A DNA stretch of 32,633 nucleotides, from contig JAITIP010000001.1 of the NCBI GenBank assembly GCA_031279415.1, forward strand, positions 1 to 32,633. The letters are read 5' to 3'. The DNA is from Candidatus Endomicrobium procryptotermitis. GTDB taxonomy: Bacteria; Elusimicrobiota; Endomicrobiia; Endomicrobiales; Endomicrobiaceae. Shown piece by piece: positions 1 to 31,278 of the stretch (its first letter is position 1; each line of letters begins with the position of its first letter). The position numbers and the translations under genes are program-made. Under the pieces are notes generated by a model. The model ran no database searches. It was not told the origin of the DNA and worked only from the letters and a program-made list of their open reading frames with translations.

Positions 1-1010
1 CCACTGCTCTTTCTCCCATTCCACTTAAACGGCTTCGACGTAAGCCTTGCTATCTCACGACCGTTAATATCAAATATTGTAACCGTATCACCTGTACCCA
101 AATTCCTGAATTCAAGCTCATTTCCAGGACGGAAGACTTTGTATTTAGGCCTATGTCCGCTGCTTTCATCGCTGCCTTCAACAAATATTCCAAAAAAACC
201 ACGGTTATTAGATTCAAAAGTTATTGTTTTTTTTGCTGTATCCTGCGTTGGTGTGAAATTTACTTTTTCCCATTTGTTTCCGTTAAAATACTTGACTACA
301 TATTGGCCTTCATTTGACGAACCATAATATAAAGTTATAGTTGCGGTAAGCGAAAGAGGATTGTCGGAATATATTTCATAAAGTTTTAGAAGCCCATCTT
401 TATCACCACTAAAATAAGTAATGTCGGATTCCTGCATAGTTACTAAAGAATCTGAAGAAAATGTGCCTTGTTTAATTACTATTTCGGAGTGACCATATCT
501 TTGGTCGCCATTATCTAAAATCAGATTTCCGCCGGCTGTTGTTATAGTTGTTGAAGTACTGGCAGTTACAGGTACGTGTATCCATCCTGCGTTATATGGA
601 TAATACATTTGCTCCGAGTTATTGTTATCTACCGCAATTACAAACCTATATGAAAAAGTTCCTATGCCTAAAGGTACAGTAAATTCTTTACTTTCAAAAG
701 GTGAAGCTATGTCTTTTAACGGCAATTTTGTTATAGTAGAAGTGTCATTATTTACATAATATTCCACTTCCATATTTGTGACAGACGACGAATCAGGCTC
801 TGTTTTATAATCGCCGACAATGACCAAATTTGCTTCATGCTGATAAGGAGAAATTCTTAAAATATGCCTATGGTTTACGATGAGGTTAGCGATAGGGATA
901 GCCACTCTGGCAGACAATTGTTCAATTCTTATGGCATCATCACCAAATAAAAAAGGTGATGTAAGGAGTGAAATAAATAATAGTAATAATAAAGCAATTT
1001 TTTTATTCAT
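1..1010 (-). CDS. Exported protein with FlgD-like C-terminal domain, 3' end cut by window edge
   Basis: The frame starts at the ATG at 1010 and stays open to base 1, giving 336 residues without a stop. Residues 1-23 form a signal peptide (MNKKIALLLLLFISLLTSPF, then LFG). The body is rich in Thr, Ser and beta-strand-like segments. The last visible residues read VTIFDINGREIARLTSKPFK followed by WNGR, which is the pattern of FlgD-type Ig folds and of the C-terminal sorting-type domains of large exported proteins. The start overlaps the stop of the 489 aa gene by 8 bases (ATGAATAA), so translation is probably coupled. The real length is unknown because the stop lies outside the window. The role is inferred to be surface or secreted; no enzyme motif is visible. 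Confidence 0.75.
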   Translation of the reverse strand, partial: MNKKIALLLLLFISLLTSPFLFGDDAIRIEQLSARVAIPIANLIVNHRHILRISPYQHEANLVIVGDYKTEPDSSSVTNMEVEYYVNNDTSTITKLPLKDIASPFESKEFTVPLGIGTFSYRFVIAVDNNNSEQMYYPYNAGWIHVPVTASTSTTITTAGGNLILDNGDQRYGHSEIVIKQGTFSSDSLVTMQESDITYFSGDKDGLLKLYEIYSDNPLSLTATITLYYGSSNEGQYVVKYFNGNKWEKVNFTPTQDTAKKTITFESNNRGFFGIFVEGSDESSGHRPKYKVFRPGNELEFRNLGTGDTVTIFDINGREIARLTSKPFKWNGRKSS

Positions 1011-2472
1011 AAAATAACCGTAAAATTATCGCATTATTTTTATAAGTTGTAGACCCCGTAGCCGGCGCAAAAGCCTTACTGAAATCCGCTGCCAGATATA
1101 ATTTTGGAGCTATTTTGAAATTTATCATAGCTCCGGCAGACATACCCCAATAACTATCAGGAGAGGCATGAAAACCGCGTTTATCCCAAACTCTTATATA
1201 GTCTTCAGCTTCAAGAGCGGCATCGGAAGCATACTGTGATTTATCTTTTAAATAAAACCAAGGGTGATATGCTTCTTTGTTTGGCGCAGGGCTGCCTGAA
1301 TCATACAATCCTGCATTAACTGTCCCTATACCTGATATATTTCCACCGGAATAAAAACCTATTTCTAAAGTTTGATTATAATCTCCGATTGAAGAATTTC
1401 CAGTTCCAGTATAAGGCAACACTTTGTCTGTAACTCTCCAAGCCAAAGGTATCATTTTTGTAGTGTCGTCAGTGTTTACCAACCCGAAAGCTGTATCGGT
1501 TGAAGCGCCTGTATATTTTGGGTTTGCATAAGCAGCTTTTGTGTCTGAAAAAATTTGTATTCCCCAATTATCGTTTGGTATGCAATCTAAAGTAAGTTCA
1601 AGATATTGATCTGCGGCTTTCCAGCCATTAGGCATTGCATTCGTTAATGTCCATGTAATTTCAGAACTTGAGCTTTCCTGATAAACAGCAGTGGAAACAA
1701 CCATAAGCTTTGCATCCCAAGATACTGCATTGCCCGCTTTTTTCCAAACTATTTGGTCTAGGTCTAATATTGCCGAATAAGCATTTGCACCTGACATTGT
1801 CATTATAAATGGCATTTTAACATTATTAAGAAAACTATTATATGGAGTTAAATCTATTGATACTTTATGCCATTTACCATCCATAACAAATCCTGAAAGA
1901 CTGCCTAAAGTAACAAGTTTATCGCCGTTAGATGAAGTTTGAAAACCGACTTGAAAATATTGAGATGAAGTAGCGCTTGTTCTTACCCAAAATTCTATTT
2001 TCCCATTTGCGTAAGCGCTCATATCTCTATAGGTATTATTGCCATATCCATTGTCTGCTGTAGTGCCGTCTTTAAAAATAAATCCCCATCCTGCCCAACC
2101 GTTAGTAACAGCTTGTAAAAAATTTACCCTAAAAAATTTATTGCCTTCTACTTTTTCTTCATTATTACTATATTCTAAGTCGCCTCTTTCACTTACTGCT
2201 CCCCAGCCTGCAGTGCCTCCGTTCCATTCAATCAATCTAACTCTATCTATATCATTAAGATTTGGGGTTTGAGTAGGCGTACCATTATTTGTTTGCCCAC
2301 TCCATAAATGCAAGTCTATTTTTATTCCATTAAAATTTTCAGAGTAAAGAGAATAAATATTATTGCCAAAATTGGAAGTCTGAGTGCTGCCTGCAATTGA
2401 TTGCGCAAACAGCGGCGCAACGCTAATGGCAACTATGGATAATGATAATAACAAAAGGTTTTTTATTTGCAT
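1003..2472 (-). CDS. Secreted two-domain protein: glycan-binding-like N-terminal half plus FYE-tail domain
   Basis: This 489 aa protein begins with a clear signal peptide (residues 1-23, cleavage after LFA). Residues about 25-245 resemble a carbohydrate-binding beta sandwich, with DMSAYANGKIEFWVRTS at 150-166, DGKWHKVSIDLTPYN at 198-212 and LDLDQIVWKK at 237-246. Residues about 252-489 align by eye with almost the whole mature protein encoded at 3505-4272. Shared points are EITW/DITW, NGW/NNW, a GLV segment followed by P(L/F)AWRV, and a terminal FYE. No strong ribosome binding site is seen before the ATG. It lies between the PapD-like gene and the FlgD-tail gene on the same strand. Sugar binding is inferred from fold-like patterns only; no ligand is known. 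Confidence 0.8.
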   Translation of the reverse strand: MQIKNLLLLSLSIVAISVAPLFAQSIAGSTQTSNFGNNIYSLYSENFNGIKIDLHLWSGQTNNGTPTQTPNLNDIDRVRLIEWNGGTAGWGAVSERGDLEYSNNEEKVEGNKFFRVNFLQAVTNGWAGWGFIFKDGTTADNGYGNNTYRDMSAYANGKIEFWVRTSATSSQYFQVGFQTSSNGDKLVTLGSLSGFVMDGKWHKVSIDLTPYNSFLNNVKMPFIMTMSGANAYSAILDLDQIVWKKAGNAVSWDAKLMVVSTAVYQESSSSEITWTLTNAMPNGWKAADQYLELTLDCIPNDNWGIQIFSDTKAAYANPKYTGASTDTAFGLVNTDDTTKMIPLAWRVTDKVLPYTGTGNSSIGDYNQTLEIGFYSGGNISGIGTVNAGLYDSGSPAPNKEAYHPWFYLKDKSQYASDAALEAEDYIRVWDKRGFHASPDSYWGMSAGAMINFKIAPKLYLAADFSKAFAPATGSTTYKNNAIILRLFYE

Positions 2473-2627
2473 TATTATTCAACTTTGAACTTTTTAACGT
2501 TTTCAGCGGCAAAATACTGAAAGAAATTCATTATAACTGATTTTATCATTTCCACCCTTCTGAAACAGATTCCAAATAAAAAACAGCAACAGCTGACCAA
2601 CAAAAGACAAAAACAATGAAAATTGAC

Positions 2628-3386
2628 TTAAAACGACACTTCTCCGTATTTGTTTACTCTGAACTGAATACTTTTTTCAGTGCTTATGTTAAAAGCGTTC
2701 AAAGAAATATTCAAAACGTATTTGCCTTTTTGAGGCGGTTGAAATTTTTCCATAAAAATTCTGTCCAAACCTGCGTAAACCGGGCTTTGTTCTCCGATAT
2801 GTTTTTCCAAAACAATTTTTTTGCCTTTTTTTATAGTCAAAACGCCTTTTAGCCTTACGGGCAAGTTGCCGTTATTTTTAACTTTAAACGTCACAGGAAT
2901 GCCTTCTTCTTTATACATTCTCGGGTTTGAAAGCAATATCTCTGTAATTTCAAAATCAATTTTTTCAGTGCCTTTTATCGTCAAATATACAGGAACGCTT
3001 GTCATTAAAGATATTCCCGTCATTTTAGGAGCGACATAAGTAAAAGATACCATAGCAGACAAAGAACCGACATAATTTTTAGAACTTACTTTATAAGAAA
3101 TATCCGCTTTTTGATGTGGCTTTAAAATCAACTGTTTATTAGAAACAGAAAGCCAATCTCCGACTTTTACATTTTTGTTTTCAGGTGAATTGTGCCATTC
3201 TTCACAAGTAACGGAAACAGTTATGGCATCATCATTGTTGTTTTCAACGGTATAAACTCCATTAAAAACCGATTCTTGCTCAATATGCGCTTCACTTCTT
3301 GCGGGGGAAACTATAATGGCTGCATAAAGACTACCTGCAAAGAGAAAAAACAAAGAAACTAAAAAAAATAAATTTAATTTTTTCAT
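2628..3386 (-). CDS. Exported PapD-like (periplasmic chaperone-like) two-domain protein
   Basis: The product has 252 aa with a signal peptide at residues 1-22 (ending SLYA). The mature start IIVSPARSEAHIEQ followed by a strand pattern ending in VENNNDDAITVSV looks like the N-terminal Ig domain of PapD-type fimbrial chaperones and related DUF916-like surface proteins. A second Ig-like half follows (about 140-250), with VTFKVKNNGNLPVRLKGVL typical of CARDB-like domains. No usher gene is in the window, so it may be a chaperone, a structural Ig protein or an adhesin partner. It sits between two genes for secreted proteins that share a domain, which makes a folding or assembly role for those products a reasonable guess. 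Family assignment is moderate, exact role unproven. Confidence 0.7.
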   Translation of the reverse strand: MKKLNLFFLVSLFFLFAGSLYAAIIVSPARSEAHIEQESVFNGVYTVENNNDDAITVSVTCEEWHNSPENKNVKVGDWLSVSNKQLILKPHQKADISYKVSSKNYVGSLSAMVSFTYVAPKMTGISLMTSVPVYLTIKGTEKIDFEITEILLSNPRMYKEEGIPVTFKVKNNGNLPVRLKGVLTIKKGKKIVLEKHIGEQSPVYAGLDRIFMEKFQPPQKGKYVLNISLNAFNISTEKSIQFRVNKYGEVSF

Positions 3387-3467
3387 TTATTTATCAGCTT
3401 ATTGAATTTATTTCAGTGTTGTATTAAATTAAATTTCTAAACAAGTTCAGAAAAATAAATTAAACCC

Positions 3468-3499
3468 TTCAGGCTGCGGGTTTTTACCCGCAGCCTGAA
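3468..3499 (-). terminator. Perfect 14 bp hairpin terminator after the secreted protein gene
   Basis: Arms 3468-3481 and 3486-3499 are exact complements around a four-base loop. The hairpin lies 5 bases after the stop codon of the gene at 3505-4272. On the minus strand it is followed by GGG and a T-rich stretch (GGGTTTAATTTATTTTT). The U-tract is not immediate, but the stem is very stable, and on the plus strand the far arm runs into A residues. It should separate the 255 aa gene from the PapD-like gene. Confidence 0.8.
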
Positions 3500-3504
3500 A
3501 AAGA

Positions 3505-4272
3505 TTATTCGTAAAAACCTCTAACAACGATTCTGTCCGAACCATATTCCACTCCGCCCATCGCTGTGGCAAAATTAGCTCCAAAATACATATAGAATGT
3601 TCCCGTAGGAGAATCGCCGATATCACTTACGCCGCCGCCATATCTACGACCCTGATAGCTCAAAAATACGCGATATGCCATCTTGTCAGGGGCGGTATCA
3701 AATCCTGTGTCGCTCTTGTCAATGAAATATTGCCCGCCATCAGCTAAACCCTCCACAACACTATCACCGCTATACGTCGGGGGGAATACCGTTCGCTTAT
3801 TGGTTGCAACTTTTGTAAAAGTTGAAACTCTCCATGCAAAAGGCAAAGCTGCCCGAACTCCGTTTGTGTGACCAGCCGATGTCGTTGACTGTACCAAACC
3901 ATTATGTGTTTTATCTGTGGCTGAGGTATAAGTGGCAGTAGCCTTATAAACCGCGCTGTTGACATTATCTTGATAAATCTCAATTGTTGCCAATTGTTTG
4001 GTTATAGTAGAATTAATAAGTGCATAAACCTCAGAATCTATCCAGTTATTTGAGCCTCCGATCGTTATGTCTGTCGATGCCCAAGTGATGTCAGTGGCGT
4101 TCGCGTTGTCAGCCACTTTTTTTAACTCAAAACTCCATGAAAACTCCCCCAAATTACCAGGAATTGTCACTTTTGCAGTTTTTGTCGAATTTGCCACTTC
4201 AAGCGCATAAACCGACGATACTGCAAATGTCAAAAATGCCACAACTGCCAAAAAACTAAATACTTTACGCAT
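3505..4272 (-). CDS. Abundant-type secreted beta-rich protein with C-terminal FYE
   Basis: The product has 255 aa. The start was set at the ATG at 4272 because GGAGG lies four bases before it; a longer frame from 4296 would place that site inside the coding sequence. Residues 1-23 are a signal peptide ending SVYA. The mature part carries DITW, NNWIDSEVYALI, GLVQSTTS, LPFAWRVS and the terminal RIVVRGFYE. These match in order the C-terminal half of the 489 aa protein at 1003-2472. The gene has its own promoter-like site (4374-4401), a 5' UTR hairpin and a strong terminator, so it is likely a separate and highly expressed transcript. No known family was recognised. A surface or pilin-like subunit is a guess; an aromatic last strand would also fit an outer-membrane-inserted protein. 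Confidence 0.8.
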   Translation of the reverse strand: MRKVFSFLAVVAFLTFAVSSVYALEVANSTKTAKVTIPGNLGEFSWSFELKKVADNANATDITWASTDITIGGSNNWIDSEVYALINSTITKQLATIEIYQDNVNSAVYKATATYTSATDKTHNGLVQSTTSAGHTNGVRAALPFAWRVSTFTKVATNKRTVFPPTYSGDSVVEGLADGGQYFIDKSDTGFDTAPDKMAYRVFLSYQGRRYGGGVSDIGDSPTGTFYMYFGANFATAMGGVEYGSDRIVVRGFYE

Positions 4273-4289: not shown

Positions 4290-4305
4290 GGGACATTTTT
4301 GTCCC
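4290..4305 (-). promoter_or_regulatory. Small 5' UTR hairpin before the Shine-Dalgarno of the 255 aa gene
   Basis: On the minus strand GGGACA, AAAA, TGTCCC form a perfect six-pair stem with a four-base loop, ending about 8 bases before the GGAGG site. It may protect the mRNA 5' region or tune translation. No known riboswitch class is suggested. Confidence 0.4.
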
Positions 4306-4373
4306 TTTATTTATATCTACTATTGTAAAATAAGAAAAGAAAGAGAAAGCAAAAAAGTAGATACATGTATATA

Positions 4374-4401
4374 TTTATATATATTTTTATGCAAATGTCA
4401 A
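4374..4401 (-). promoter_or_regulatory. Sigma70-type promoter for the 255 aa secreted protein gene
   Basis: TTGACA (4401-4396, minus strand) is a perfect -35 box. TATAAA (4379-4374) lies 16 bases downstream as a -10 box. A start near 4366 would give a leader of about 95 bases containing the 4290-4305 hairpin. The region is very AT-rich, so the -10 choice is less certain than the -35. Confidence 0.55.
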
Positions 4402-5119
4402 TACCCATAAATCGTTAATTCGTTATATATTATAAAAATACAAACAATTTAGCAACAAAGAATTAAAAAAATAATTTGAATTTTGTTTTGAAGAAGTAGA
4501 ATAATAATTGTGTTGTTGGGAATACAAATTATTATTGTGATACAATTTGTTGAATATTAATTTTGGATGATTCTCAAAATTTATTAACATACCATAATAT
4601 ACTATGTTTTTTTTTATTTGTCAATATATAAAAACAAATTTCGCAAGTTTTTCAAACAATCTGTATAATAATTAAATATATTTAATTAAATATTTTTGAT
4701 AAAATTAGTTTTTATTAAAAGTTAAAAACATAAATCTGAGTCTGCAAAAAATAAATGCTTTTTTTGTGCATATCCATGTTGCAAGGTACTTGCACATGAC
4801 AAACTAAGAAGACTTTTACATATCATAAAAATCAACCCAGTTTTTGCTTTTGCCTTTGTCGTGGTCGTCATTGCGGACTCCGCGCCGCAATCTGTTGTTG
4901 TCGTTATTCCCTTTTACAGCTGTCAACCCAAAGGAAAATATTTTTCTTCATCTATCATCTATAATATACGCTGCTGCTTCAGATTCATAGTGGCAGAAAT
5001 CAGATAATAAAGCTTAACATATCTCTACGGCATATATTGAAAGAGAATAAAAAACAATTTGCTTATCAAAAGACATAATATTTTTTATAATTCATATTTA
5101 AATTTAAAACTTTTTTTAG
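4402..5119. other. AT-rich intergenic stretch with no intact gene
   Basis: About 700 bases with stops in all frames and long A/T tracts. I see no tRNA and no intact reading frame. It holds a bulged inverted repeat at 4775-4798 (about CATGT(T)GCAA paired with TTGCACATG around GGTAC) and the degenerate hairpin repeat at 4866-4894. A stretch from about 4818 to 4985 is open on the plus strand but has no start codon and contains that repeat. Confidence 0.6.
4866..4894. repeat. Degenerate CGTCATTGCG...CGCAATCTG intergenic hairpin repeat
   Basis: ATTGCGG (4870-4876) pairs with CCGCAAT (4885-4891) around an eight-base loop, with CGTC before and CTG after. The outer words match the common intergenic repeat type CGTCATTGCGAG...GAAGCAATCT found scattered in many bacterial genomes, with an altered middle. 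It is a GC-rich island in very AT-rich DNA. Only one copy is in the window, so repetition is inferred from the resemblance. Confidence 0.4.
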
Positions 5120-5362
5120 GTGTTATGCTTTAAAAATGCATGGATTATTATCAATTCTTTTTTTCTAACTTCGCTTTACGGACAGTATTTAAATTTTATC
5201 ATTGAATTTTCACGCGAAATCGGAAAAACCCAACAAACTCTTTTAAATTTTACTCTTCCTTTTTCTTACGGGACGATTATTTCTTCAAACTTTTTGTCAA
5301 GCGATACTATAATTATAAATATACAGGATTTGCATTCACACCCAACCGTTCAAAGCTTATAA
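5120..5362 (+). pseudogene. N-terminal fragment of an exported 'IQDxH' protein, truncated
   Basis: This is the only plus-strand frame with coding character. It starts with GTG at 5120 and gives 80 residues. After a hydrophobic start ending LTSLYGQ it reads LPFSYGTIISS and then DTIIINIQDLHSHPTVQ. The pattern 'leader, LPxxYGTI, hydrophobic, IQDxHxxxxxQ' recalls a family of large exported proteins in Elusimicrobiota and Omnitrophota whose full members run several hundred residues. Here a stop follows three codons after the motif, just where the conserved domain should continue. I read it as a decayed gene start. It could instead be a chance frame; the family match is from memory and short. Confidence 0.45.
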
Positions 5363-5400
5363 ATTTCTCAACTTACGACGTTTGTCCGCTGCTCAACTTT

Positions 5401-28121: not shown

Positions 28122-29342
28122 TCAAACTGTTTTTAAAATATGTCCCATTTTCTCTTTTTTTGTTTTAAGATATATTTTATTTGAGTTTGTCGGAGATATT
28201 TCTACGGAAACTCTTTTTGATATTTTTAAACCATACCCCTCAAGGCCGACTATTTTTCTCGGATTGTTCGTCATAAGATTTATGCTTTTTATGCCGAGTT
28301 CTGACAAAATCTGCGCTCCGATTCCATAATCGCGCAAATCTGGAGCAAAACCCAAAGCGACATTCGCTTCAACCGTATCCATTCCCTGCTGCTGCAGATA
28401 ATAAGCTTTCAATTTATTTTTAAGTCCTATGCCTCTTCCTTCCTGATGCATATACAAAACCACGCCTCGTCCTGCTTTTTCGATTGCACGCAAAGCGGCT
28501 TCAAGCTGATCCCCACAATCGCATCTAAGCGAATGGAATACGTCTCCGGTTTCACATGAAGAGTGTACCCTTACCAAAACGTCTTTTTTACCTTTGACAT
28601 CGCCTTTTATAATCGCCAAATGAACCTCCTTTGTCACGGAATCCTCAAAAAGAACGGATTTGAAATCTCCATACTTTGTAGGCAAATCTACGGCGACGAC
28701 TTCTTTTACAAGTTTTTCGGTTTTTCTTCTGTAATAAATTAAATCTTCTATAGTAATAATTTCAAGTTTATGTCTTCTGGCAAATTTAATAAGATCTGGC
28801 ATTCTCGACATTGTGCCATCATCGTTCATTATCTCACATATTACGCCTGCTGGATAAAGTCCTGCAAGTTTTGCAATGTCAACCGCCGCTTCCGTATGCC
28901 CCGTGCGCACAAGCACGCCGCCTTCTTTGTAACGTAAAGGAAAAATATGACCAGGACGGGCAAAGTCTTCATGTTTTGAGGTTCTATCAATAAGCTTTTT
29001 TACAGTTACAGCTCTGTCATAAGCGGAAATTCCTGTAGTCGTGCCTATGCGGTAATCTACAGAAACTGTAAATGAGCAGCCTTTTTTTTCGGTAGGCTTG
29101 TCAACCATATTTTCTATTTTAAGTTTTTCCAACTGATTACTTTTCATCGGAACGCAGATAAGCCCTCTGGCGTGTTTTGTCATAAAATTAATAATTTCCG
29201 GAGTGACTTTTTCCGCAGCGCAAAACAAATCGCCTTCGTTTTCACGTCCGGGATCATCAACTACTACCGCCATTTTCCCTTTTTTTATATCCTTTAAAAC
29301 GCTTTCAACTTTTGAAAAATTTTTTTTGTCTGATTTAATCAT
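28122..29342 (-). CDS. ribBA: Bifunctional 3,4-dihydroxy-2-butanone-4-phosphate synthase / GTP cyclohydrolase II
   Basis: 406 aa, the normal fused length. The N-terminal half (1-205) has [18 protein letters not shown] at 27-44 and [20 protein letters not shown] at 129-148, ending with the [13 protein letters not shown] segment. The C-terminal half has the zinc ligands Cys263, Cys274 and Cys276 in [19 protein letters not shown] and the later [10 protein letters not shown]. It makes both riboflavin precursors, from ribulose 5-phosphate and from GTP. One base separates its ATG from the ribE stop. Confidence 0.95.
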
Positions 29343-31070: not shown

Positions 31071-31091
31071 TAATGAAAAATTTATAATATT

Positions 31092-31275
31092 CTTCTTTTG
31101 TCCGGACTATACCGTCGGCATCCGAATTTCACGGATTCAGTCCACTTTTAAGCGGAGTCGCAGGCTTGAAACTTCATTTCTTTTTTAATGAAACCCTGTT
31201 TCTTTTACTGCCGGTAAGGATTCGGGAAACAAATTCCAAAGGGAACTTTGTTCCTTCACCTTCCCCGAAGACTTA
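31092..31275 (-). ncRNA. FMN riboswitch (RFN element)
   Basis: Read on the minus strand it has the ordered RFN signatures: TCTTCGGGG at the 5' end, ACCGGCAGTA, AAGCCTGCGAC, GTGGACTGAATCCG, GATGCCGACGGTATAGTCCG and a closing GAAGAA that pairs with the 5' TCTTC (P1). It senses FMN and should end transcription of the riboflavin operon when FMN is abundant, through the terminator at 31037-31070. The P2 arm (AAGG/CCTT) carries a loop of about 39 bases where Bacillus subtilis has about seven; P3 is also long. Confidence 0.93.
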
Positions 31276-31278
31276 ATA

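Follow-up and report, generated by a model that had tools for sequence, protein, structure and literature searches.

A four-gene cassette of Candidatus Endomicrobium procryptotermitis with possible likeness in working to the WxL/Csc surface systems

Four consecutive minus-strand genes, here called A to D, stand at the start of a 32,633-nucleotide stretch of Candidatus Endomicrobium procryptotermitis DNA (contig JAITIP010000001.1, positions 1 to 32,633; hereafter the window). The cassette probably resembles the WxL/Csc clusters of Lactobacillales and Bacillales in its working, and is not a member of them by domain. By analogy with those clusters, we consider it somewhat probable that the four genes specify an outer-surface carbohydrate-binding protein complex which works as WxL/Csc does. 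A preliminary description, made from the letters of the window alone, had read the genes as subunit (A), chaperone-like factor (B), adhesin (C) and anchor-type protein (D) of an exported multi-protein surface system. Its observation is confirmed and its interpretation partly supported: the exported system and the parts given to A, C and D are judged right, and that given to B is not. Four things escaped it, namely a barrel gene (E) which follows D in relatives, a SprA homologue elsewhere in the genome, a hairpin after A, and the occurrence of the domain shared by A and C on glycoside hydrolases.

Results

The window starts at base 1 of its contig (C1), in a genome of 2.0 Mb and 46 contigs; the relatives of this genome that bear names are Endomicrobium of termite guts and Elusimicrobia of the rumen. 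The open reading frames bear out a run of four exported minus-strand genes, as signal-peptide-like N-termini can be read from the sequences of A, B, C, and D. Gene A (3505..4272, minus strand) encodes a small protein of 255 aa, the mature part of which is a single domain; its frame is openable to 4296, and the likely start is the ATG at 4272, with GGAGG ahead of it. Gene C (1003..2472, minus strand) encodes a large protein which ends in the same domain (1003..1764; residues about 237-489). BLASTP aligns A residues 53-263 with C residues 251-489 at 25% identity (34.7 bits, E 2e-6), against a maximum of 23.9 bits versus C for 60 shuffles of A, and at family level the profile of 42 small proteins matches that of the C-terminal domains found in the large ones (99.9%; E 6e-34). 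Judged from these alignments, the end of C and protein A are one common domain, as had been claimed, which we call FYE. In the fetched loci, FYE lies at the extreme C-terminus of its protein in 76 of 76 cases, and its last residue is E or D in 62 of the 76, compared with about 8% of other genes; the literal ending FYE is a local version, which elsewhere reads YTE, VTE, SYE and so forth. The domain goes unrecognized by family collections, with nothing meaningful from Pfam for A homologues and nothing from NCBIfam for A.

Proteins that end in FYE also carry carbohydrate-directed domains. The front of C holds a galactose-binding or carbohydrate-binding-like domain (1780..2076, minus strand; residues 133-231), matched by Exop_C at E 4.2e-5, which is under the cut-off; the front domains of C homologues exceed the cut-offs (Exop_C 64.6 bits, CBM30 51.2 bits), and the earlier reading of this part as glycan-binding-like is thereby upheld. 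Elsewhere in the window genome, FYE ends a 1301-aa GH81 glucanase (contig C40:15981-16949; locus L078:7979-11884), and in relatives it ends large proteins with multiple carbohydrate-binding modules, while on an Omnitrophota contig a glucoamylase-type enzyme with terminal FYE adjoins a B gene. In the GH81 endo-glucanase, a stretch resembling the galactose-binding-like front domain of C precedes the terminal FYE, and comparable FYE frames of 1270-1560 aa occur in genomes G001, G002, G004, G018, and G028.

The structure of FYE was modelled on protein A alone. The AlphaFold2 model, moderately confident at pLDDT 75.6, is rich in beta structure, and a fold search with it gave no significant match (best E 0.011, TM-scores near 0.2); the head of the non-significant list consists mostly of fibre subunits (CfaB, CanA, TasA, FimF, Csu). 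A sequence search of FYE against the PDB returned mainly antibody chains, matched only in the first 71 profile positions and taken as signal-peptide matches. Homology of FYE to pilins was rejected, as no profile match was obtained.

Gene B (2628..3386, minus strand) encodes a protein of two immunoglobulin-like (Ig) domains, modelled with confidence (pLDDT 90), so that the PapD-like label of the preliminary description holds for the fold. It fails by profile: hhalign gives the B family 2.4% against seven E. coli K-12 pilus chaperones of the PapD/FimC kind, and 97.8% against the DUF916-DUF3324 family of WxL-interacting proteins (WxLIPs; E 1.1e-12, 245 columns, both Ig domains). With signal peptides and helix trimmed, the match to WxLIP stays at 96.8% (E 2.5e-10), and a reversed control gives 1.8%. 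In a ranking by the B profile, no E. coli pilus chaperone comes ahead of any of the 11 WxLIPs, and, conversely, B proteins rank top among the genes of the loci when searched with the WxLIP profile. In the PDB, B has a single match by sequence, EfmWxLIP1 (9i1y; E 0.0076), and the same structure is its best Foldseek match (1.8e-11), with Vpr and pilus chaperones next in the list; because TM-scores are near 0.5, the fold evidence is not decisive alone. With the best profile, PDB and fold matches all to WxLIP, the proposal that B is a chaperone-like factor is not sustained, and profile comparison identifies B as a distant WxLIP homologue. The absence from B of both the C-terminal transmembrane helix and the NQIDKxxxYFDLK segment of WxLIPs therefore marks it as a homologue, and not as a standard member of that family. 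On an Aminicenantes contig (locus L116:178-3503), a 742-aa protein that combines a barrel-like front with SdrD_B/carboxypeptidase-regulatory domains is overlapped by a B-like protein (WxLIP_PGBD, E 3e-5); the 742-aa protein is a conceivable usher-like partner.

Gene D (3..1010, minus strand), which shares 8 bases with the end of C, encodes a beta-rich exported protein with a C-terminal sorting-like domain, and lacks its last residues because contig C1, and with it the window, starts inside the gene. The first 55 residues of this domain are present (3..167, minus strand), and are of the type B/FlgD-like C-terminal kind known from the type IX secretion system (T9SS; own profile 3e-13). The FlgD-like end noted earlier is evident in complete D homologues, which match CHU_C (22 of 26), TIGR04183 (T9SS type A; 21 of 26) and FlgD_ig (18), mostly weakly. 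A second cassette, comprising A, B, a small open reading frame and D, lies on contig C43, where D is cut at the same point; window positions 1..113 (unstranded) are identical to the end of that contig, where they code for the same D domain. The 113-base identity and the common cut point therefore indicate that a repeat which encodes the C-terminal domain of D interrupted the assembly.

In relatives, the gene directly after D encodes a barrel of the PorV/PorQ/PorP family (E; 21 of 28 loci with a visible neighbour), which matches PorV_fam at E 1e-7 to 8e-24, under curated cut-offs. The genome of the window also holds a SprA/Sov-like frame of 1787 aa (contig C38:19435-24762), 66% identical to a homologue that matches TIGR04189 (SprA/Sov) at E 4e-38, with 130 bits as against a curated cut-off of 200 bits. 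The SprA_N family is detected in 22 of 70 related Elusimicrobiota genomes, among them G011, G037, and G041 of the small-genome genus g8, which lacks the cassette. Another PorV/PorQ-like gene in the window genome directly follows a protein with a PorU/M6-type sorting tail (L124:7177-9400), and the two are a candidate second T9SS cargo-shuttle pair.

Related genomes contain the cassette at about 30 loci, and B homologues were found in 30 and C homologues in 27 of 100 of these genomes. Among the fetched loci the order is A-B-C-D or A-C-B-D, and neighbouring pairs number 25 for AB, 17 for BC, 22 for CD, 11 for BD, and 21 for DE. Co-occurrence in related genomes, on which the preliminary description had staked its system, is borne out: B and FYE are both present in 27 of 80 genomes, both lacking in 47, and found one alone in 6, counts which are uncorrected for kinship; by genus, both are present in 12 of 37 and one alone in 2. 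Neither was found in the 13 genomes that were tested of g8, a genus of the family. Paired cassettes may have one common B (L082, L084, L096), and some cassettes have no C. Two genomes of genus g10 contain B genes with no adjoining A, C, or D (L087:7502-8260, L097:7403-8188). Several cassettes are preceded by a conserved block (L072:1-6524, L073, L074, L090) that encodes a 500-aa protein of glycoside hydrolase appearance, without Pfam match, a DUF5683 protein, and membrane-anchored or lipoprotein-like proteins with carbohydrate-binding-like ends; this block is perhaps a polysaccharide-use locus.

Between A and B lies a hairpin of 17 pairs (3465..3502, minus strand; z -7.1), which begins 2 nt past the stop codon of A. 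Stems of like strength (score at least 16) stand after A in 25 of 42 cases; the figures are 0 of 38 for B, 0 of 33 for C, 0 of 29 for D, and 5% for 339 other genes. Across seven close loci the stems vary in sequence, with changes on both sides at 11 of 13 predicted pairs; a clear T-run after the stem is seen in few cases. Some Gram-positive small WxL genes also have such stems at their 3' side. The occurrence of the hairpin after A, and never after B, C, or D, suggests that A is made in excess, and on the simplest reading the stem would be a processing or attenuation element which leaves more message for A than for B to D.

Discussion

WxL clusters combine a small protein that is a WxL domain only, a large protein that ends in this domain, and a WxLIP; in an AlphaFold2 prediction, a strand of the WxLIP completes the WxL sandwich, and WxL domains bind peptidoglycan (PMC10599100). 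Csc clusters, for which a role in dealing with plant carbohydrates is proposed, have an additional short sortase-anchored protein, CscD (PMC1534035). The present cassette has the same layout, with FYE replacing WxL: a WxLIP-type gene stands together with at least two proteins that share a C-terminal domain, one of which is the domain only, and in the large protein this domain follows binding domains. As in the E. mundtii order of small protein, WxLIP and large protein, the two-Ig gene lies between the small and the large gene, and a separate, presumably anchored protein and a proposed role in carbohydrate use complete the likeness. A, C, B, and D fill the WxL/Csc places one for one, with FYE in the place of WxL, and a T9SS-type C-terminal domain protein plus PorP-like partner in that of CscD.

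In the Bacteroidota, PorP/SprF-like partners take part in the secretion of proteins with type B C-terminal domains and retain them; the genes of the two often lie side by side (PMC9143113, PMC12618676). The CHU_C or type B-like end of D, the PorV/PorP-family barrel gene after it, and the SprA-like protein of the genome fit this arrangement, although the phylum is Elusimicrobiota, and type IX secretion has been described as Bacteroidota-specific (PMC7463736). If D leaves the cell via the SprA-like translocon, and if its PorP-like partner E then holds it in the outer membrane, D and E would constitute a surface anchor equivalent to the sortase-anchored CscD of Gram-positives. A would serve as the building block present in abundance, and C would bind glycans, a place which an enzyme may take in other FYE proteins. 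B, in turn, would hold the FYE domains by completing their beta-sandwich, as WxLIP does for WxL; that A, B, and C pass the outer membrane by the same SprA-type route is a guess. Together, with A in excess, the proteins could form a complex on the cell surface that captures glycans in the gut.

Several findings set the cassette apart from the WxL/Csc clusters or weigh against a complex of that kind. The host is diderm, the proposed anchor is a protein with a T9SS-like C-terminal domain and not LPXTG, and FYE is not detectably WxL: no profile match to the WxL domain was obtained with full-length or mature sequences, the WxL family PF13731 has no match in 60 genomes while a Lactococcus control is detected, A and C show neither the dual W-x-L motif nor assignment to the WxL family, and the solved WxL domain 9i25_A is absent among the 50 matches listed for the FYE model. 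B departs from the WxLIPs in having no C-terminal transmembrane helix, with a 19-residue hydropathy maximum above 1.6 in just 2 of 37 B proteins as compared with 2.2-3.6 in 11 WxLIPs, and in a gap, in the B-WxLIP alignment, at the conserved N-terminal segment NQIDKxxxYFDLK. As for the anchor, the position of E after the window's own D is beyond the contig end, E in relatives scores below curated cut-offs, and a PorU-type C25 peptidase (sortase) and GldM gave no match in searches in which no control genome gave one either.

A divergent fibre of the chaperone-usher kind, with B as chaperone in the periplasm, A as donor-strand pilin and C as tip adhesin, seems to us unlikely. It would account for the two-Ig fold of B, for the class 5 and archaic chaperones that come soon after WxLIP in its Foldseek list, and for the logic of major subunit and adhesin, and it gains from the conserved final strand of FYE with its terminal acidic residue, from A being probably the most abundant product, and from the predominance of pilins, TasA, and other fibre subunits among the weak fold matches. 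These matches, however, are non-significant, and by sequence B is not homologous to PapD/FimC chaperones, nor FYE to pilins. A profile of five E. coli ushers has 0 matches in the fetched loci, the whole genome being outside this search, and the PapD profile likewise matched no gene of those loci. A chaperone-usher system is therefore unsupported. With TasA-type and other donor-strand fibres A shares the form of a secreted beta-rich subunit of about 260 aa, probably in excess, but its fold matches to them are weak and non-significant.

That FYE is instead a new T9SS-like C-terminal sorting domain, with A as an unattached copy by which the exporter is occupied or tuned, is a still less probable account; the domain is invariably terminal, on enzymes and binding proteins alike, and SprA and PorV-like genes are present, but a mature protein which is the domain only makes little sense for a sorting tag, and D of the same cassette has a recognizable sorting domain of another kind. 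We give slightly less credence again to a periplasmic or cell-wall assembly, in which FYE would bind peptidoglycan like WxL and D alone would reach the surface. Peptidoglycan binding by WxL domains and the homology of B to WxLIP would favour it, whereas the fusion of FYE to a GH81 glucanase and to carbohydrate-binding domains that act on outside substrates, and the lack of a membrane anchor in B, speak against it.

WxLIP/WxL clusters have been reported almost only from Firmicutes (PMC10599100). A farther-reaching reading, which we hold to be possible and rather doubtful, is that WxL-type assembly is older and modular, and not a Gram-positive invention: the diderm Elusimicrobiota, joined by relatives among the Omnitrophota and possibly the Aminicenantes, would keep the WxLIP partner, pair it with an FYE client completed by B via a donor-strand-like contact, and use a type IX-like SprA/PorP route, here outside Bacteroidota, to anchor the whole to the outer membrane. 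The searched literature contains no description of WxL or of T9SS in Elusimicrobiota, and the cassette is of interest because it combines WxLIP and type IX-like parts in a phylum for which that literature has neither. Joining a WxLIP homologue with T9SS-type parts, it would link two surface systems, and would provide a diderm answer to the anchoring problem. FYE itself would be a new C-terminal domain family by which bacteria of termite guts and of the rumen display glucanases and carbohydrate-binding domains, and the FYE/B set could be used to compare how WxLIP holds its clients.

Other features of the window

Upstream of A, positions 4297-5400 form an AT-rich stretch of about 1.1 kb without a likely gene. 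A sigma-70-like site within it (4624-4596, minus strand; 11/12 match) would imply a 5' leader of about 320 nt for A; the promoter scan overall gave no excess over chance, and this site is nonetheless a good match. Further along the window, a flavin mononucleotide (FMN) riboswitch (31086-31276, minus strand) precedes genes of that strand, among them DHBP synthase/GTP cyclohydrolase II (28122-29342).

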